Shown here in pieces: positions 51,304 through 61,978 of a stretch of 64,000 nt of DNA. The stretch lies in contig JAOZHV010000059.1 of the NCBI GenBank assembly GCA_026014725.1, forward strand, positions 62,001 to 126,000, given 5' to 3'. The stretch comes from Candidatus Bathyarchaeota archaeon. GTDB lineage: Archaea > Thermoproteota > Bathyarchaeia > Bathyarchaeales > Bathycorpusculaceae. The translations under genes and the position numbers were made by a program. The notes beneath the pieces are model-generated. The model saw nothing but the letters and a program-made list of their open reading frames with translations. It searched no databases and had not been told where the DNA came from. Position 1 is the stretch's first letter; every line of letters starts with the position of its first letter.

Positions 51304-53388
51304 TTAGGCACCTATGCCTAGCAAGCCTAGAAGGTTGTACTGCACAATTAATGCTGCAAACAGTGAAGCTACAAGCGACATAACCGTAATCATCGTATTC
51401 AACGAAGGACCAGCAGTATCCTTGAATGGGTCACCAACCGTATCACCGACAACCGCTGCTTTGTGCGCTTCTGAACCTTTACCGCCATGAACTCCTGTTT
51501 CGATGAGTTTCTTTGCGTTATCCCATAATCCTCCTGCGTTAGACATAAGCAGAGCCAAAAGCAAACTTGACAGTATAGCGCCAGCCAAGAAGCCGCCTAG
51601 TGCGTTGATTCCGCCAATGAAGCCGACTAGTAGCGTAGCTACAATGATTACAACGCTGGCAGGCATTAACTCGCGAATTGCACCTACGGTTGCGATGTCG
51701 ACACATTTGGCATAGTCAGGTTTTACGCCTGGTTTGCCTTCTCTTAGGCCTGGAATTTCGTTGAATTGTCTTCTGATTTCAGCTATCATTCGTTCTGCAT
51801 TTTTGCCTACACCTAACATAAGCATCGCTGAGAATACAGCAGGGATAGCTACTCCGATAAGCGCTCCAAGCAAAACCATCGGGTTCATGATGTCAAAGAC
51901 TGCAACGTGACCAGCGCTTGCCGCGATTTCTTGGAAAGCAGCCAGAAGTGAAATCACCGTTAAACCTGCAGCGCCGATAGCGAAGCCTTTCGTTATGGCT
52001 TTAGCGGTGTTTCCTGCAGCGTCAAGTTGGTCAGTAATAGCAATAACTTCCTCGCTTAGTCCTGATTGCTCAGCAACTCCTTTAGCATTGTCAACGATTG
52101 GACCATACGCATCGTTTGAAACTGTTAAGCCGACGATTGAAAGCATGCCGACTGCCGCCATTGAAATCCCGAAAACTCCGAAGGTGACTCCGCCTAAAGG
52201 TTCAAGAAGCAAGTACGAAACTGCCGCTGCGACGCCTATGCCAATCAATGGTAAAATTATGCTTCGTAGACCATACGAGAAGCCTGTGATGATATTTATG
52301 GCAGGACCGCTTTTTGAAGCCTCAGCAGTCTTTAGCACTGGCGCTTTATCTTCTGAAGTAAAGTAGTCTGTTGTTACTCCGATTATAACGCCTGCGACCA
52401 TGCCGATGGTGGCTGCGCCCCAGATTCTCCAGTCGTATGCCAAAACATATGTTGTTATAGCTGTTAAGACTGCAAAGATGGTGCATGTTATGTATGTGCC
52501 CATATTTAGGGCGAATCCGGGGTTGCCTTTTTTGCCGATTCTAATGCTCAGTGACCCGATTATGGAAGCGAATATGCCTACAGCTGCAAATACCAGCGGT
52601 ATCTGAATGTACAAAGTACCACCAGTTAAGGAGAGCGCTGCGCCCAGAATCATGACTGCAACGATGCTTGCGACGTAAGAGTCAAACAGGTCTGCGCCCA
52701 TTCCAGCAACATCGCCCACGTTGTCGCCAACGTTGTCAGCAATCACGGCAGGGTTTCTTGGGTCGTCTTCTGGCAGGTCAAGTTCTACTTTGCCAACAAG
52801 GTCAGCGCTAATGTCTGCAGTTTTAGTGTAGATGCCACCGCCTGCCTTGGCGAATAGCGCGAGAGCACTGGCTCCGAAGCTAAAGCCTAAGACGATTTGT
52901 GGGTCGCCTGTTAGGAAATAGACGACGCTTATACCTAGTAATCCTATGCCGACAACTGAGAAACCCATGACTGCGCCACCTCGGAAGCCAATTGGAAACG
53001 CCCTGTTTAAGCCTTGTTGGGCGCCGTTGGCGACTTTGGCGTTGGCTTTGGTTGCGATGCTTAAGCCTAGAAAGCCTGCTAGTGCGGAGAATGCTGAGCC
53101 GAAGATGTAGGCTAACATGAGTGAAACATTTTCTAGTATGTTGCCTGTCCAGATTGGTTTAGGAAGGAAGAGGAGTAACAGAACAGAAATGACGCCGACG
53201 AACATGAATAATACCGTGTATTCTCGCTTTATGAAAGCACGGGCTCCAAGCCTGATTGCATCGGAGATTTCCCGCATTTTTTCGTTTCCGCTGTCTTGTT
53301 TGTCTACGTATCTATAGAAGTAAAGTCCGACTACAATTGAAATTAATGCAGCTATTGGTGCTATTAACCATGGTTCCAAATTTTTCAC
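51304..53388 (-). CDS. hppA: ion-pumping membrane pyrophosphatase, K+-independent type
   Basis: This 694-residue protein of about 16 helices couples PPi hydrolysis to ion export. PPi-site segments [20 protein letters not shown] and [15 protein letters not shown] are intact. At the K+ site it has [10 protein letters not shown] with Lys at the position that makes these enzymes K+-independent, typically H+ pumps. It starts with GTG. It lies divergent to a P-type ATPase gene with 132 bases between starts. It would recover energy from PPi, for instance that made by acetyl-CoA synthetase. Confidence 0.93.
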
Positions 53389-53457
53389 CTTATTTTATCG
53401 CTAGCTGTTCGTTTTTATTGTAAGTTGTTTATTAGCTTTTTTTAAACCTATCAAAAA

Positions 53458-53466
53458 TATTATAAG
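53458..53466 (+). promoter_or_regulatory. TATA box of the first P-type ATPase gene
   Basis: TATTATAAG lies about 55 bases before the GTG start in the short gap shared with the divergent pyrophosphatase gene. Confidence 0.5.
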
Positions 53467-53520
53467 TAGATAGCAAAGCAAAGCATTAGATAATAACTTG
53501 TTAGAGAGAGGAGAGCGCAA

Positions 53521-56349
53521 GTGGCGAAACAATGGCATGGTAAAACGCTTGAAGAAGTAACAGGCGAACTAAACGTTACAAATAAGGGATTAACTAGTCA
53601 AGAAGCACAAGAACGACTCAAGAAATATGGTTACAACGAACTCGTGGCAAAGAAACGCCGAACCGCTCTCCACATGTTCCTCGACGAGTTCAAAGATGTT
53701 TTCATTCTCCTTTTAATCGCTGCCACTATAATTTCGGCAGTTATCGGATATTACGACATACTTACTGGCACGGCAGAAGGCGTTTTAGAAGCCTTCGCTG
53801 ACGCCTTAATTATCGGAATAATTGTGCTTTTAGTCGCCATTACAGGGTTTGTGCAGGAATTCCGCACTGAAAAAGCCTTGGACGCTATGAAAAAGCTAAC
53901 GGCGCCCAAAGCGCGGGTAATTCGAGACGGGCAAGAAGTTATCATTCCAGCCAAGGAACTTGTTCCCGGCGACATTTTGGTCTTGGAATCAGGCGACCAT
54001 GTGCCTGCAGACGCACGAGTTATGGAAGCCATTGAGCTTAAAACAAGTGAAGCCATCTTAACAGGTGAATCGACACCGGTAAATAAGGGCACAGCAGTTG
54101 TAAACGATGAAACTCCTATTTCTGAAAGGCGCAACATGCTGTTTACAGCTACGCATGTTGTTTATGGAAGAGGAAAAGCTGTTATAGTCAACACTGGCAT
54201 GAACACGGAGTTCGGCAAAATCGCTGAAATGGTTCAAACAACCGAAGACGAGGAAACCCCCCTGCAGAAGAAACTCAACAAATTCGCAGGGAAACTAGCA
54301 AAGATTGTAGTTGGAGTTTGCGTCCTAATATTTGTCCTCGAAATCTTCGATGTCATCAGAACGGGCCAACTCATAATTAACGATTTCATCTTAGCCTTCA
54401 TGTCAGCCATATCGCTGGCGATTTCCGCTGTCCCAGAAGGCTTACCCGCCATAGTTACGGTGGCTTTGGCTCTTGGAGCACGCGAATTTGCAAGACGTAA
54501 CGCCATCGTTCGCAGACTATCCTCTGCTGAGAGCCTTGGTGCGGTGACAGTTATCTGCTCTGACAAGACGGGTACGATAACAAAAGGTGAAATGACTGTT
54601 CGAGAAGTATACGCTGATAACGAATTCTTAGAGCTTACGGGTGTTGGTTATGAGCCGAAAGGAGAATGTACACAGAACGGAGCCGCTGTTAAACCTAAAC
54701 CTGAAGCAGAACTGCTCTTCAGAATGGGTGTCTTAAACAATAACGCTCAACTTCGAAAGAAGAGCGATAATAGTGGTTATGAAATCTTTGGCGACCCAAC
54801 CGAAGGCGCCTTAATTACTGCTGCTGAAAAAGCATGTGTCCTAAAGCAAGAGGTTGAGAATGCTTATCCACGCATCAGGGAAATTCCTTTCACCTCTGAG
54901 CGCAAACGCATGACCACCTTGCATAAAACCCCTGAGGGCAAAGTTGTGGCTTACACGAAGGGTGCTCCAGAGACCATACTGGAGAGATGCAAGTTTATTC
55001 TTGAGAACGGTAAAGAAACGAAACTTACAAAGGCAAAAGCAGACAAGATTTTAGAAGCAAACGCAAAACTGGCCGGGGATGCACTACGTGTTCTAGCTTT
55101 CGCATACAAATCTTTGCCAGAGCAGAGTGAGGAAATCAGCGATGATGCGATTGAGCAAGACCTTGTTTTTGTAGGCTTACAAGGCATGATTGACCCACCC
55201 CGACAAGAGGCCATTGACGCAAACAAAACTTGCCGCAAAGCTGGAATAAAAACAGTTATGATAACGGGCGACCACAAACTTACTGCTGTTGCAGTTGCTC
55301 GTGAAGTAGGCATATTCCAAGAAGGCGACTTGGTCTTAACTGGAACAGAACTAGACCAACTCAATGATGAAGAATTTGCTGAGAAAGTTGAGAAGGTCTC
55401 AGTTTACGCACGTGTGTCGCCAGAGCACAAATTGCGTATTGTGAACGCATTAAAGAAAAGAGGTCACATTGTAGCCATGACAGGCGACGGCGTCAACGAT
55501 GCACCCGCAGTCAAAGCCGCTGATGTTGGCGTTTCAATGGGCATAACAGGCACCGACGTAACCAAAGAAGCCTCCGACTTAATTCTGACAGATGACAACT
55601 TTGCCACTATCGTTAAAGCCGTGGAGGAAGGCAGAGTCATTTACGACAACATACGCAAGTACGCGCGTTTCCTAATCTCATGCAATTTCGATGAATTATT
55701 AGTCATCGGATCATTCGCACTCTTAGGCGGAATCTTCGGCAACTGGCTATTCCCATTGCCGTTGCTCCCTGCGATGATACTCTGGATAAACCTCGTAACA
55801 GATGGCGCCCCAGCAGTGGCTCTCGCAACCGACCCGCCTGATGTCGATGTCATGAGTAGACCACCTAGGAAACCTAATGAGGGCATATTGCATGGCATGG
55901 GCAGATTCATCGTGCTATCGTTTATTTTGCAGTCAATCGGAACAATTTTAGTGTTCAGTTTGGAATACTACATATTCCCGTCACACCCATGGATGATAAA
56001 CGGTGTAATCGACGAAGCAGCAAGACAACTAACCTATGAAGAAGCGACAACAACAGCGTTCGTTCAAGCAGCCATGTTTGAGTTACTGGTTGTCTGGAAC
56101 TGCCGCTCAGAAAAACGTAGTGTCTGGCGCATGGGAAGAGACGCGTTCAAGAACAAGTTCTTCGTCATTGCAGAAATAATCTCTATCGCTGCAACATTAG
56201 GCATATGCTACTTACCAATTACACAGCAACTCTTCCACCTTGTACCCTTGAGCATCACGGACTTAGCGTACGTAATCGGCATTTCAGCGTTGGCACTATT
56301 GGTGTTACCTGAATTTACAATGAACAAGAAGCTTTGGAAGTGGAGCTAG
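53521..56349 (+). CDS. P-type ATPase, Ca2+ type (P2A), copy 1
   Basis: This 942-residue pump has the N-terminal domain (WHGKTLEEV), actuator TGES, phosphorylated D348 in DKTGTIT, hinge TGDGVNDAPA, M4 AVPEGLPA and M6 INLVTDG with the Asn, Thr and Asp used for Ca2+ in SERCA; M5 has a nearby CNFDE. It should export Ca2+ (or Mn2+) from the cell. The GTG start has GGAG 7 bases upstream. It is followed 221 bases later by a second pump of the same type. Confidence 0.9.
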   Translation: MAKQWHGKTLEEVTGELNVTNKGLTSQEAQERLKKYGYNELVAKKRRTALHMFLDEFKDVFILLLIAATIISAVIGYYDILTGTAEGVLEAFADALIIGIIVLLVAITGFVQEFRTEKALDAMKKLTAPKARVIRDGQEVIIPAKELVPGDILVLESGDHVPADARVMEAIELKTSEAILTGESTPVNKGTAVVNDETPISERRNMLFTATHVVYGRGKAVIVNTGMNTEFGKIAEMVQTTEDEETPLQKKLNKFAGKLAKIVVGVCVLIFVLEIFDVIRTGQLIINDFILAFMSAISLAISAVPEGLPAIVTVALALGAREFARRNAIVRRLSSAESLGAVTVICSDKTGTITKGEMTVREVYADNEFLELTGVGYEPKGECTQNGAAVKPKPEAELLFRMGVLNNNAQLRKKSDNSGYEIFGDPTEGALITAAEKACVLKQEVENAYPRIREIPFTSERKRMTTLHKTPEGKVVAYTKGAPETILERCKFILENGKETKLTKAKADKILEANAKLAGDALRVLAFAYKSLPEQSEEISDDAIEQDLVFVGLQGMIDPPRQEAIDANKTCRKAGIKTVMITGDHKLTAVAVAREVGIFQEGDLVLTGTELDQLNDEEFAEKVEKVSVYARVSPEHKLRIVNALKKRGHIVAMTGDGVNDAPAVKAADVGVSMGITGTDVTKEASDLILTDDNFATIVKAVEEGRVIYDNIRKYARFLISCNFDELLVIGSFALLGGIFGNWLFPLPLLPAMILWINLVTDGAPAVALATDPPDVDVMSRPPRKPNEGILHGMGRFIVLSFILQSIGTILVFSLEYYIFPSHPWMINGVIDEAARQLTYEEATTTAFVQAAMFELLVVWNCRSEKRSVWRMGRDAFKNKFFVIAEIISIAATLGICYLPITQQLFHLVPLSITDLAYVIGISALALLVLPEFTMNKKLWKWS

Positions 56350-56398
56350 CGAAATAATAATCGCAAAGCAAATCGTTAAAAGTTCAATGCATTACTCC

Positions 56399-56403
56399 TT
56401 TTT
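56399..56403 (+). terminator. T-rich terminator between the two ATPase genes
   Basis: CTCC followed by T-rich DNA (TTTTTCTTTTCTTG) lies 50 bases after the stop, compatible with a U-tract terminator. Confidence 0.35.
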
Positions 56404-56570
56404 CTTTTCTTGTATTTTACCATGGAAAAATCCAAGGAAACAAATATTAAAAGAGATGCCCTTTTTCAAAGGAGCGGTAATAATTAAGGGTTGGAAGTGC
56501 AATATCGAACGTTTGGCATTCATTTGAAAAAGAAGAGGCTTTAAGGGCGCTTAGCTCTGATGAGGCTGGT

Positions 56571-59267
56571 TTGGGTTTTGAAGAAGCAAAAAAGCGTTTA
56601 GCTCAATATGGACCTAATGAATTAAGGAAAGAAAAAGGCAAATCGCCGCTCAAACTTTTTGTGTCACAGTTCACCGACATTCTCATGGTCATTCTTATCC
56701 TTGCCATGCTCTTGTCTTTAAGTTTAGGCATCTACGAAAACTCAATGGAGGAAATATACGGTGCAATCATTATCTTCGCCATTATCCTTGCCAGCGCAGC
56801 ATTAGGCTTCACGCAAGAATTCCGAAGTGAAAAAGCCGTCGAAGCACTAAAACGCATGACCGCTCCAACAGCCAGTGTTCTTCGTAACGGAAAAGAAACA
56901 AAGGTTCCTGCCAGCGAGCTTGTTCCAGGCGACATCATTGTACTTTACACTGGTGACAAGATTCCTGCAGATGCCAGGCTAATCGAGGCAGTTAACCTCA
57001 AAGTTGATGAAGCTGCATTAACAGGTGAATCAGCTCCAGTTGGTAAATCTACTGAAGCATTGCCTGAAGATACTGATCTAAATGACAGACAAAACATGGT
57101 TTTCACTGGAACAATCGTTGCTTACGGAAGAGCAAAAGCAGTGGTTACAACCACAGGAATGGCTACTGAATTTGGCAAAATCGCAACAATGGTCCAGTCA
57201 ACAAGCCAAGAACAAACCCCCCTTGAAAGAAGAATGGGCAGTGTTGGCAAATGGATAGGCATACTAGCCATAATTGTTTGCATCAGCGTTGCCGCCCTTG
57301 GAATTATTCAACAAAGAGACATACTCACCATGATTCTGTGGGCAGTAAGCCTAGCCGTCGCGGCTGTCCCTGAAGCGTTACCTGCAATTGTAACTGGCGC
57401 TCTTGCAGTAGGTATGTATCGAATGGCTAGAGTCAACACCATCGTTAAACGTCTTCCAGCTGTTGAAACTTTGGGGTCAACGAGTGTAATTTGCTCAGAC
57501 AAGACAGGAACAATGACTAAAGGCGAAATGACCGTTCAACGCATTTACATCAATGGCAGTTTCATCAAAGTTACAGGCATAGGCTACGCTCCTGTAGGCG
57601 AATTTCAATGCGAAGGAAAAACCATCTGTGCAGGTGACGAGTTAAAGATGCTTTTGCGAGCGGGAAACTTATGCAACGATGCCAAACTCCAAAAAGAAAA
57701 GGAAAAATGGACAATTAACGGTGACCCCACAGAAGGCGCTTTAATAGTTGCCGCCGCAAAAGCAGGTGTCTCTAAAGAAGAGCTTGAGGCGCAAGAGCCC
57801 CGAATAGCGGAGATTCCGTTTTCTTCCGAGCGCAAACGCATGACGACAATCCATGAAACCAAAGACAAGAAAAGAATTGCTTACATGAAGGGTGCTCCTG
57901 AGGTTGTGCTGGAAAAATGCTCAAGCATCCTCAAAGACGGCAAGGTTGTAGAGTTATCAAAGGAAACTCGTGTTGAACTGTTAAAAGTTACTGAAGCCAT
58001 GGCGCTCCAAGCGCTGAGAAATTTGGGCTTTGCCTATAAGGAACTGGGTTCTGGCTCAAGCTTTGAAGAGAAGGATGAGCATGATTTTGTTTTCGTTGGC
58101 ATTGTAGGTATGATTGATCCTCCACGTGACGAAGTTAAACAAGCCATTCATCTTTGCCGTGATGCCGGCATTAGAGTTGTTATGATTACTGGCGACCATA
58201 AATTAACTGCTACAGCGGTTGCTAGAGAACTCAACCTCGTCGGCGAGGACGATCAAGATAAAATCCTAACAGGTGCGGAGCTTGATAAAATTAGTGATGA
58301 GCAGTTAGTTGAGATGGTGGATAGGATTTCGATTTATGCGCGGGTTGCTCCTGAGCACAAGACCAAGATTGTTAAGGCTTGGAAGGCAAAGAATCAAGTT
58401 GTAGCAATGACTGGTGACGGCGTTAACGACGCTCCTGCGCTGAAGATGGCTGATATTGGCATTGCGATGGGGATAAGCGGCACCGAAGTCACCAAAGAAG
58501 CCTCAGACATGGTTCTTGCTGACGACAACTTTGCATCCATAGTTAAGGCTGTGCGCGAAGGCAGAGAGATTTATGATAACATCAAAAAATACCTAACTTA
58601 CCTGTTGCGCTGCAACATTATGGAAATTATTGTTATGTTTGTGGCGGTGATTTCTGTACCTTACATTGCTGCTTTGGTTTCGCCAGGCGCAGATGTCGTT
58701 GCTATTGGTGAGGCTACTATTGCTTTAACTGCTGTTCAGATTCTGTGGGTTAACTTGACGACTGATGGTTTGCCAGCTATTGCTTTAGGTCTCGACCCTG
58801 GCGACCCAGATTTGATGCAACGTAAGCCTCGCGACCCAAAGGAGAGCCTATTCACACGTGATGTCAAGATTTACCTCACTGCTGCCCCGATACTGATGAG
58901 CGCATTGCTTTTGTTAGGTTACTTCATTTACAGACCGTGGGAGGGGGCTCAGCAATTGATTGAGGCGCGTACGCAATTGTTCACGGCAATTATCTTGATG
59001 GAGTTGGCTAATGCTTTGGCTGCGCGGTCATTGAAGTACCCGACGGTTAAGGTTGGCTTGTTCAAGAACAAGTTCTTGTGGTATGCGATAGCCTCGTCTA
59101 TGGTGCTTCAGCTAATAGTACTCTATGTTCCTGGTGTTCAGGGTATCTTTGGTGTAGCGCGTCCAGAGTTGATGGATTGGGCATTGGCGATTCTGTTTGC
59201 AGGTATTGCGTTTGCCGCGCTGGAAATCGGCAAATACATTGGTTGCAGAAAAGCAAAGGCATGTTAG
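56571..59267 (+). CDS. P-type ATPase, Ca2+ type (P2A), copy 2, start unclear
   Basis: The 898 residues from TTG at 56571 hold all core motifs: TGES, D310 in DKTGTMT, TGDGVNDAPA, M4 AVPEALPA, M5 RCNIMEII and M6 VNLTTDG. The product is a second Ca2+-type pump. The conserved N-terminal domain begins upstream: codons from 56514 read WHSFEKEEALRALSS and align without gaps with copy 1, yet the open stretch back to TAA at 56481 has no ATG, GTG or TTG. An unusual start (for example ATA at 56502) or a one-base frameshift is likely. Confidence 0.88.
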   Translation: MGFEEAKKRLAQYGPNELRKEKGKSPLKLFVSQFTDILMVILILAMLLSLSLGIYENSMEEIYGAIIIFAIILASAALGFTQEFRSEKAVEALKRMTAPTASVLRNGKETKVPASELVPGDIIVLYTGDKIPADARLIEAVNLKVDEAALTGESAPVGKSTEALPEDTDLNDRQNMVFTGTIVAYGRAKAVVTTTGMATEFGKIATMVQSTSQEQTPLERRMGSVGKWIGILAIIVCISVAALGIIQQRDILTMILWAVSLAVAAVPEALPAIVTGALAVGMYRMARVNTIVKRLPAVETLGSTSVICSDKTGTMTKGEMTVQRIYINGSFIKVTGIGYAPVGEFQCEGKTICAGDELKMLLRAGNLCNDAKLQKEKEKWTINGDPTEGALIVAAAKAGVSKEELEAQEPRIAEIPFSSERKRMTTIHETKDKKRIAYMKGAPEVVLEKCSSILKDGKVVELSKETRVELLKVTEAMALQALRNLGFAYKELGSGSSFEEKDEHDFVFVGIVGMIDPPRDEVKQAIHLCRDAGIRVVMITGDHKLTATAVARELNLVGEDDQDKILTGAELDKISDEQLVEMVDRISIYARVAPEHKTKIVKAWKAKNQVVAMTGDGVNDAPALKMADIGIAMGISGTEVTKEASDMVLADDNFASIVKAVREGREIYDNIKKYLTYLLRCNIMEIIVMFVAVISVPYIAALVSPGADVVAIGEATIALTAVQILWVNLTTDGLPAIALGLDPGDPDLMQRKPRDPKESLFTRDVKIYLTAAPILMSALLLLGYFIYRPWEGAQQLIEARTQLFTAIILMELANALAARSLKYPTVKVGLFKNKFLWYAIASSMVLQLIVLYVPGVQGIFGVARPELMDWALAILFAGIAFAALEIGKYIGCRKAKAC

Positions 59268-59325
59268 CGTTAGAAAGTGTTATATTGAAAAACCGTTACA
59301 CACTTGGACTTAAAAGTGATTGACT

Positions 59326-59922
59326 ATGACGTTAGTTGAAAAGTTAGCGAATCCTGCTCCTTTGGGGCTGTTGGGCTTTGGCTTAACGACGGTACTGTTA
59401 AATTTGCATAATGCTGGCTTGTTTGGGCTTGACTCGATGATTGTAGCTATGGGCATTGCTTACGGCGGTTTAGCGCAGGTTATCGTGGGCATCATGGAGT
59501 TTAAGAAGGGAAACACGTTTGGTACTGTTGCGTTTACGTCCTATGGGCTTTTCTGGTGGTCTCTGGTGACGCTTTGGGCTGTTCCGCGTTTGTCATTCTT
59601 TAATGCTGGTGGTTTAGCGCCAATCGGTGCTCCGTCGAACACGGCGATGGCGGCGTACTTCTTTATGTGGGGTTTGTTTACCTTTGCTATGTTCTTTGGA
59701 ACGCTTAAGGCTAATCGTGCTTTGCAGTTTGTGTTCATGAGTTTGGCGGTACTGTTCTTTTTGCTGACGGCGCGTGAGTTGCTTGGCAACCCACAATGGT
59801 TTAACACAATCGTAGGAATTGAAGGCGTAATATGCGGTTCCAGCGCAGTTTACCTTGCATTTGCTGAAATCTTAAATGAAACGCACCAGAGAACGATTTT
59901 GCCGATATGCCCAGTTGACTAA
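59326..59922 (+). CDS. satP: acetate uptake transporter (SatP/GPR1/FUN34 family)
   Basis: This 198-residue, six-helix protein opens with [21 protein letters not shown], of which NPAPLGL is the family signature. It moves acetate (or succinate) across the membrane. The ATG at 59326 follows a TTG two codons upstream; the difference does not alter the membrane part. It is 97 bases ahead of acetyl-CoA synthetase in the same direction, a typical pair for acetate use. Confidence 0.9.
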
Positions 59923-59969
59923 AAAACAAACCAGTTTACTTTTTTATTTTATCTATTTCCTTGAAAAAA

Positions 59970-59977
59970 CTTATATG
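59970..59977 (+). promoter_or_regulatory. TATA box of acs
   Basis: CTTATATG lies 43 bases before the acs ATG. The T-rich stretch before it could terminate the transporter transcript, so acs may have its own promoter. Confidence 0.45.
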
Positions 59978-60019
59978 CTCTGAGGCTTATTTTCCCAGCA
60001 AATTTAAGGTTGAATTATA

Positions 60020-61978
60020 ATGTCCGAGGCAAGTTTACCTTTCGACGAGAAATATAGCCCAAGCATTGTCCATGTTTCGTTTGGAGACAAAAGGAAACAA
60101 GAATGGGAAAAATCAATCAATAATCCTCAAGAATATTGGAGTGAAAAAGCTAAAGCAATCGACTGGTTTAAGCCCTTCACCAAGGTTGTTGACGATTCTA
60201 ATCCGCCATTTTTTAAGTGGTTCCCTGATGGCGAATTAAACATCTCATATAACACGCTTGATAGGCATGTCAAGACTGCCCGCAAGAACAAGCTTGCCTA
60301 CATTTGGGAAGGCGAAATGGGTGAAGTGAAAACTTACACTTACTACCAATTGTACCGTGAAGTAAACAGGCTTGCTAAAGTACTCAAGGATTATGGTGTA
60401 AAGAAAGGTGACCGTGTTGCTGTTTTCTTGCCTGTTATCCCCGAGTTGCCGATAACTTTGCTTGCGACCGCAAGAATTGGCGGTGTCCATGCGGTTGTGT
60501 TTTCTGGTTTTAGCGCTGAAGCCCTCGCAGACAGGGTGAATGATTGTGGCGCTAAGATTTTGGTGACTTCTGACGGTTCGTTCCGTCGTGGAAAACCAGT
60601 TGCAATCAAAGACACAGCAGACCGCGCATTGCCAAACATGCCGGGCATCGAGAAAGTCATCGTTGTCAAACGCACTGGTCAGCCGATTCAGATGCAAGAG
60701 GGAAGAGATGTTTGGTACCATGAGGCTTTGGCGAACGTTGGCGCCAATGTGTATGTTGAACCAGAAAGCATGAAGTCAACTGACCCCTTGTTTATCTTGT
60801 ACACTTCTGGAACCACAGGCAAACCGAAAGGTGTCCAGCATGGCACGGGCGGTTATCTGGTTTGGGCTTATTGGACACTTAAGTGGGCATTCAACCCCAC
60901 TGACGAAGATATTTACTGGTGCGTTGCTGACATCGGTTGGATTACAGGACACACATACAACGTGTATGCCCCTCTCAGCCACGGTATAACCGCATTCCTC
61001 TTTGAGGGCACACCTGACTACCCAGCCCAAGACCGCTGGTGGGATATGATTGAACGCCACGGCATCACCATCCTGTATGGAACCCCGACTGCTGTGCGCA
61101 TGTTCATGAAGTTCGGTGAAGAATGGGTCAACAAGCACGATTTGAGCACTCTGCGCGAGTTAGGCTCTGTTGGCGAACCCATTAACCCAGAAGCATGGAA
61201 ATGGTACTACCGCGTCATAGGCAAAGAAAAACTCCCAATCATCGACACCTGGTGGCAAACAGAAACAGGTGGATTCATGATCTCCCCTGCAGCAGGCATA
61301 GAAATAACACCGCTAAAACCAGGTTCAGCCACGTTGCCCTTGCCAGCAGTTGACGCTGACATCTTCGATGAAAAAGGCCAATCAGTTCCACAAGGAACCA
61401 AAGGCTACCTAGTAATCAAGTCACCTTGGCCAGGAATGCTTCAAACCATCTGGAAAGACCCTGACCGATTCAAACAAACATACTTTGGCAGGTGGCCAGG
61501 AATCTATTATGTCGGCGACTACGCAATCCGTGACCCTGACGGCTACTTCTGGCTACTAGGCAGAGCTGACGAGGTTCTCAAAGTTGCTGGGCACCGCATC
61601 GGAACCGTTGAATTAGAAAGTGCGTTGGTTTCGCATCCAGCAGTGTCCGAAGCCGCAGTCATGGGCAAAGAAGATGCAGTGAAAGGCGAAGTCCCAGTAG
61701 CCTTCGTAGTGTTGCGCGGCGGATTCACGCCCTCAGACGAGCTTCGAGCTGAACTCATAAAACACGTGCGAACAACCATTGGACCAATCGCAACCCCAGA
61801 CGCAATCGTCATGGTTAACAAGCTACCGAAAACACGCAGCGGCAAAATCATGCGCAGGCTCCTCAAAGCAGTATTGTCAGGCGCGCCATTAGGCGACACC
61901 TCAACCATCGAGGACGAAGGCTCAATCGAAGACATCAAAGCCACATACAACGAACTACGAAAGCAACTCACCAAATAA
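60020..61978 (+). CDS. acs: acetyl-CoA synthetase, AMP-forming
   Basis: This 652-residue enzyme activates acetate with ATP and CoA to acetyl-CoA, AMP and PPi. The P-loop TSGTTGKPKG near residue 263, YTLKWAF-like core region (YWTLKWAF), DTWWQTETGG and the C-terminal PKTRSGKIMRR with the catalytic/acetylatable Lys are visible. Length is typical. The pyrophosphate made can feed the membrane pyrophosphatase at 51304-53388. Confidence 0.95.
   Translation: MSEASLPFDEKYSPSIVHVSFGDKRKQEWEKSINNPQEYWSEKAKAIDWFKPFTKVVDDSNPPFFKWFPDGELNISYNTLDRHVKTARKNKLAYIWEGEMGEVKTYTYYQLYREVNRLAKVLKDYGVKKGDRVAVFLPVIPELPITLLATARIGGVHAVVFSGFSAEALADRVNDCGAKILVTSDGSFRRGKPVAIKDTADRALPNMPGIEKVIVVKRTGQPIQMQEGRDVWYHEALANVGANVYVEPESMKSTDPLFILYTSGTTGKPKGVQHGTGGYLVWAYWTLKWAFNPTDEDIYWCVADIGWITGHTYNVYAPLSHGITAFLFEGTPDYPAQDRWWDMIERHGITILYGTPTAVRMFMKFGEEWVNKHDLSTLRELGSVGEPINPEAWKWYYRVIGKEKLPIIDTWWQTETGGFMISPAAGIEITPLKPGSATLPLPAVDADIFDEKGQSVPQGTKGYLVIKSPWPGMLQTIWKDPDRFKQTYFGRWPGIYYVGDYAIRDPDGYFWLLGRADEVLKVAGHRIGTVELESALVSHPAVSEAAVMGKEDAVKGEVPVAFVVLRGGFTPSDELRAELIKHVRTTIGPIATPDAIVMVNKLPKTRSGKIMRRLLKAVLSGAPLGDTSTIEDEGSIEDIKATYNELRKQLTK

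Follow-up and report, generated by a model that had tools for sequence, protein, structure and literature searches.

At which codon does translation of a cation pump begin when its reading frame holds no conventional start codon ahead of a conserved N-terminus? The question is raised by the second of two tandem ATPase genes (copy 2) in a window of 64,000 nucleotides, the whole stretch of DNA analysed here, which belongs to the 2.56 Mb genome of an uncultured archaeon, probably a bathyarchaeon (G000; G, C, and L numbers are our handles for genomes, contigs, and loci). Following a TAA at 56481, the frame of copy 2 is open from 56484 to 59267 (927 codons), and its first in-frame ATG, GTG, or TTG is TTG 56571. 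A sequence-only reading had reported that this interval holds no standard start and that a conserved N-terminus precedes any such codon. Inspection of the sequence confirms the first claim, and the second is upheld by the frame itself, by WHSFEKEEALRALSS encoded from 56514, by its gap-free alignment with copy 1 (WHGKTLEEVTGELNV...), and by the PF00690 (Cation_ATPase_N) match, which runs from model position 1 at frame residue 11 (WHS, at 56514). Consequently, a start at TTG 56571 would remove the first part of this domain.

The other three Pfam domains of such pumps, PF00122 (E1-E2_ATPase), PF13246 (Cation_ATPase), and PF00689 (Cation_ATPase_C), are also matched. The best NCBIfam models are those of PMR1-type and SERCA-type Ca2+ ATPases, and both scores are below the equivalog cut-offs (TIGR01522, PMR1-type, 724.5 versus 798.3; TIGR01116, SERCA-type, 664.4 versus 703.4). 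Judged by its domains, copy 2 is a complete P2A-type ATPase, putatively a Ca2+ pump; with both scores under the cut-offs, no subtype or ion is assigned to it. The closest solved chains are those of LMCA1 (PDB 6zhf; lmo0841), which, like SPCA1 and SERCA, belongs to the same family over nearly its full length, the N-terminus included in the case of SERCA; these are ordinary proteins, whereas copy 2 is unusual in its start codon only. The neighborhood (51304-61978) places side by side a membrane pyrophosphatase, the two tandem P2A ATPases, an acetate transporter, and what we take, from its sequence, to be an acetyl-CoA synthetase-like gene. The features of the locus are collected in the table.

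Table. Features of the tandem ATPase locus (window coordinates).
Feature	Position	Strand	Remark
Copy 1, P2A-type ATPase	53521..56349	+	Starts with GTG, four codons ahead of WH; 48% identical to copy 2
CAAGGAAACAAATATTAAAA	56433..56452	+	Same sequence in G006; probable BRE/TATA promoter element of archaeal type
AAGGAG, previously proposed ribosome site	56469..56474	+	Not conserved; G006 has CAAAGCAG
Conserved leader TTAAGGGTTGGAAGTGCA	56484..56501	+	16/18 bases shared with G006; two weak Shine-Dalgarno options
Out-of-frame GTG	56497..56499	+	GGG in G006
ATA, proposed start codon	56502..56504	+	Column shared with ATG/GTG/TTG/ACG starts of orthologues and GTG of copy 1
Copy 2, P2A-type (Ca2+-type) ATPase	56502..59267	+	921 codons from ATA, then stop; frame intact in G000 and G006
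Conserved N-terminal stretch WHS...G	56514..56570	+	5' of first canonical start; 43/57 bases shared with G006
TTG, first canonical in-frame start	56571..56573	+	Leucine codon: TTG in 6/45 orthologues, TTA in 30, CTA in 7

The nearest orthologue, at 85% identity, lies in an independent assembly, SRBZ_4 (G006; contig JAOZHX010000008.1, L029). An ungapped comparison of 56424-56870 with this genome gives zero indels, the same frame relation, and ATA in both; G006 likewise lacks a canonical in-frame start ahead of the N-terminus, and the TTG corresponding to 56571 is the first canonical codon there too. These observations bear directly on the proposal that the frame is in fact entered from GTG 56497 or TTG 56491, either because a base is wrong or missing in the sequence or by programmed frameshifting. 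Both codons do lie just upstream, in a different frame from copy 2, but the GTG is not kept in G006 and the frame of TTG 56491 stops there after 11 codons (by eye); canonical starts are also absent from the orthologues of G089, G033, and G035. An independent genome thus carries the ATA with no indel, and G089, too, lacks canonical starts, which makes a sequencing error or frameshift very unlikely; the one-base join to GTG 56497 that the sequence-only reading had offered fails with it. The same reading had pointed to AAGGAG as a good ribosome site with no in-frame start behind it. The motif is present and no canonical in-frame start follows it, but its lack of conservation in G006 indicates that it is probably not a working site. 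TTA 56484, a further option, was discarded: it is common to G000 and G006 only, nothing similar is found in the other relatives, and the AAGGAG upstream is not conserved. Two small upstream ORFs seen by eye, at ATG 56422 and ATG 56456, were also set aside, neither codon being ATG in G006.

Comparison with relatives favors the remaining option, ATA 56502. Orthologues were drawn from 61 genomes, 53 named loci, 90 genomes of the family, and 162 of the order (41 with an orthologue at E <= 1e-125), and 45 distinct ones remained after duplicates, sequences of <60% identity, and hits of <300 aa or missing the N-terminus were dropped. The ATA column, four codons before WH, holds ATG, GTG, or TTG in 26 of the 45 (in G093 one codon upstream), ACG in eight (in G033 one codon upstream), and ATA in three, namely the window, G006, and G029, the last of which also offers an ATG in frame, six codons further upstream. 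Other codons occupy the column in the remaining eight, seven with a canonical start nearby and one (Scotarchaeum, L060) with an ATG 14 codons upstream of WH. Copy 1, whose GTG start is preceded by GGAG, agrees with this placement, as does SERCA1a, residue 6 of which is aligned with residue 6 of copy 2 when counting begins at the ATA. Before WH, five orthologues (G000, G006, G089, G033, and G035) are devoid of in-frame canonical starts; each of them shows ATA or ACG, which differ from ATG by one base, at the column (one codon up in G033). G089, the next nearest after G006, is one of these, with ACG. In the window, then, no canonical codon lies at or upstream of the N-terminus of this intact gene, a one-base variant of ATG stands where most orthologues start, and it is kept in the independent genome G006.

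When the 45 proteins were placed in a maximum-likelihood tree (quick method, start columns excluded), G000 and G006 came out as sisters, joined by G089 with an SH-aLRT support of 92. ACG recurs in the other main group (G033, G082, G035, G097, G100, G062, and G111), and at least 10 changes among the three start-codon classes are required on the tree. In G033 and its sister G093, the start codons differ (ACG versus ATG) and the nearby leader and N-terminus are nearly identical. In-frame TAG codons were also seen at two loci, one shortly 5' of the conserved YGPNEL in the orthologue of G102 (L116, contig G102:C36), which was among the rows dropped before the 45, and one in a further P2-type ATPase paralogue of G033 (G033:C1:49006-50040, minus strand).

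If translation began only at TTG 56571, the pump would lack its first 23 residues. In both the window and G006, no canonical in-frame codon comes earlier than this TTG. In the window it is preceded by a Shine-Dalgarno-like GAGG (-7.8 kcal/mol, aligned spacing -1), but G006 has no GAGG and G089 has TTA at the position. Furthermore, the stretch that would be left untranslated, WHS...G, is kept across the orthologues and corresponds to PF00690 from its first position. The ATPase is under strong purifying selection between G000 and G006 (pN 0.06, pS 0.75, pN/pS 0.08 for codons +19 to +120 after WH). For the 22 codons after the ATA, pN is 0.22 and pS 0.33 (4.5 silent and 11.5 replacing changes), and this pair of genomes alone gives no significant excess of silent change there. 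However, 56505-56570 differs at only 16 of 66 bases, far fewer than expected from the pS of 0.75 in the next 101 codons, which argues that the stretch is constrained. A profile of the N-terminus, built from 25 canonical orthologues (their own leave-one-out range, 28.6 to 57.0), gave scores of 25.0 for the window, 34.1 for G006, and 42.3 for G089, whereas neutral drift simulated at 0.3 changes per site gave 95th percentiles of 16.9 to 22.5. The window score falls below the lowest canonical one and, together with the missing silent excess, suggests that some relaxation is possible. On balance, use of TTG 56571 alone is improbable.

The main evidence against a start at ATA 56502 comes from its Shine-Dalgarno context, which is weaker and less well placed than in the ACG orthologues. 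Sites were scored with the 16S tail shared by G000 and G006, CCGGATCACCTCCTAAGAAA. Among 258 G000 start sites common to G006 (ATG 173, TTG 61, GTG 24), the commonest aligned spacings are 2 to 4 and the median is -5.9 kcal/mol. The ATA can be paired with AAGGG at an aligned spacing of 3 (-3.6 kcal/mol) or with GGAAGTG at a spacing of -2 (-6.4 kcal/mol), and a spacing of -2 or less is seen in just 3 of the 127 G000 start sites of -6 or better. All eight ACG orthologues, in contrast, have a good match at an aligned spacing of 1-3, as against 36% of the 258 sites, and their median is -9.8 kcal/mol versus -7.9 for the 26 canonical orthologues (Mann-Whitney p = 0.03, the rows being related). Five of the eight have a GTG at codon -7, in most of them within or beside the Shine-Dalgarno sequence; as the true start it fits worse and was rejected, though it may serve in G100 (-8.1, spacing 5) and G111 (-8.6, spacing -2).

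It is also conceivable that both codons are used, with a weak start at the ATA yielding the full pump and TTG 56571 a shorter form. Both codons are present in G000 and G006, and the GAGG of the window would suit such an arrangement, but the TTG is absent from G089 and the GAGG from G006. In addition, the actuator domain would lose its beginning, and, from what is generally known of SERCA, such a form is unlikely to pump. Dual use thus seems improbable as well.

We therefore favor, with a probability of roughly 0.84, the reading that the gene is intact and is translated from ATA 56502, where the initiator tRNA would read AUA, a very rare codon for initiation, as a weak near-cognate start. An mRNA arising from the likely promoter near 56440 would carry the short leader TTAAGGGTTGGAAGTGCA, whose weak pairing with 16S rRNA would put the AUA in the P site. 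With its CAU anticodon, the initiator tRNA is able to hold AUA, AUC, or AUU through two correct pairs. At the ATA, initiator Met-tRNA would pair with the A and the U, the mismatch at the third position being tolerated, and the resulting protein would begin Met-Ser-Asn-Val-Trp-His, as in the relatives. From this arrangement we infer initiation at the AUA with a low, possibly condition-dependent pump output, the codon acting as a likely throttle on a membrane pump. AUA being a poor start codon of the kind that aIF1 disfavors, output should be low; in Sulfolobus, aIF1 promotes discrimination against non-canonical starts (PMC6237735).

AUA starts are already known in bacteria. In Staphylococcus aureus, infC, ccpN, and citZ have AUA start codons, and in poor medium a reporter was expressed at ~10% of the level obtained with AUG (PMC13009471). 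As there, the AUA at our locus opens an intact gene, is kept in relatives (as for ccpN), and would be a weak start; unlike the archaeal ATPase, the S. aureus cases concern a bacterium with IF3, an extended Shine-Dalgarno sequence, and reporter data, whereas the ATA here has a weaker Shine-Dalgarno context and is known from sequence. The GTC start of Streptomyces sigR is likewise a conserved non-canonical start that annotation had overlooked; it differs in opening a regulator gene, in its codon, in being experimentally shown, and in being under control of the bacterial fidelity factor IF3 (PMC5472188). For archaea, a review names AUG, GUG, and UUG as start codons (PMC7531240), and in the titles and abstract openings of the open-licence PMC literature we found no report of near-cognate (AUA, ACG, AUU) starts in Bathyarchaeia.

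Is the pump a solitary case? Comparison of 791 kb of G000 and about 1.03 Mb of G006 yielded 402 pairs of reciprocal best hits, 314 of which remained once overlapping frames were removed. In 73 of the 314, at least one genome has four or more aligned residues encoded upstream of its first canonical start. The ATPase is the longest case common to both genomes, with 29 aligned residues before the first canonical start (the next has 13), and its N-terminal extension is beyond chance among these pairs. The 275 pairs with 45% identity or more were searched for near-cognate codons accompanied by a Shine-Dalgarno sequence, and in the 12 rows obtained two further G000 genes are clear by eye. Counting the ATPase, about 3 of the 275 G000 genes checked are thus without a canonical start.

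The first of these (L262, G000:C44:233337-234233, plus strand; homologues L263-L281) encodes a Snf7-like protein that we take to be CdvB-like (PF03357, 25.6 bits, just below the cut-off). Among 20 loci compared, from 85 genomes with a match, the start column is canonical (ATG, GTG, or TTG) in 13 and non-canonical in 7, with ATC in G000, G029, G013, G022, and G032, ATT in G024, and ATA in G016. The near-cognate loci have a strong Shine-Dalgarno sequence, at a spacing of 2 in the six scored directly and likewise for the ATC of G000; in G013, G022, and G024 the frame is closed by a stop two codons upstream, and in G032 there is a GTG five codons upstream of the ATC. The second is an Ssb-like OB-fold gene (PF21473; L282, G000:C44:163221-163841, plus strand; also L293, L301, and L302), for which 25 loci were compared, one of them cut by a contig end and stopping short of the N-terminus. 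ATG is found in 15 of 17 close orthologues, ATC in G000 (-11.2 kcal/mol, spacing 3), and ATA in G004; seven more distant homologues have CTG (two) or TTG (five). Near-cognate cases confined to a single genome could be assembly errors, an explanation that does not easily apply to shared ones.

An Lrp/AsnC-like gene (L250, G000:C44:109267, minus strand; also L251 and L257) is a weaker candidate. It has no canonical start before its helix-turn-helix, and near the start G000 has ATA ACG and both G089 and G084 have ACG. A second scan of the 275 pairs looked for genes in which one genome has a start with a Shine-Dalgarno sequence and the other has none of the canonical codons within a distance of 12 codons. 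Of its six rows, five were dismissed on visual inspection as mistaken start picks or as uninformative. The one kept, a gene presumably FMN-reductase-like (L191, G006:C12 near 223,857, plus strand), has GTT where G000 has TTG, with 47 codons free of a canonical codon; this GTT could be a sequence error. A secreted-type protein (L183, G000:C44 near 335,800, plus strand) has a signal-like N-terminus and ATA ACG instead of a start. In G035, where 256,580 bases out of about 1.6 Mb were covered, 80 frames with a hit of at least 40% were checked, and none of the 19 resulting rows is a clear near-cognate case.

Loss of aIF1 was considered as a cause and rejected, as PF01253 is found in 16 of 17 genomes, including G000, G006, and G089, and is absent only from G093, which is 86% complete. 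A tRNA scan (40 loci in G000) gave one CAT tRNA and did not identify the initiator.

Tentatively, and at somewhat less than even odds, start choice may be loosened throughout the family, with perhaps 1% of genes (the pump, the ESCRT-III/CdvB-like and Ssb-like genes, and possibly the Lrp-like gene) using AUA, AUC, AUU, ACG, or CUG as recurring weak starts placed by Shine-Dalgarno sequences, a tuning layer overlooked by gene callers. Annotation with three start codons would truncate or miss the N-termini of such genes, this pump included. The proposed natural near-cognate sites, AUA in the pump, ACG in its relatives, and AUC and AUU in the ESCRT-III-like gene, lend themselves to tests of the way in which aIF1 and the Shine-Dalgarno sequence control the fidelity of archaeal start selection.
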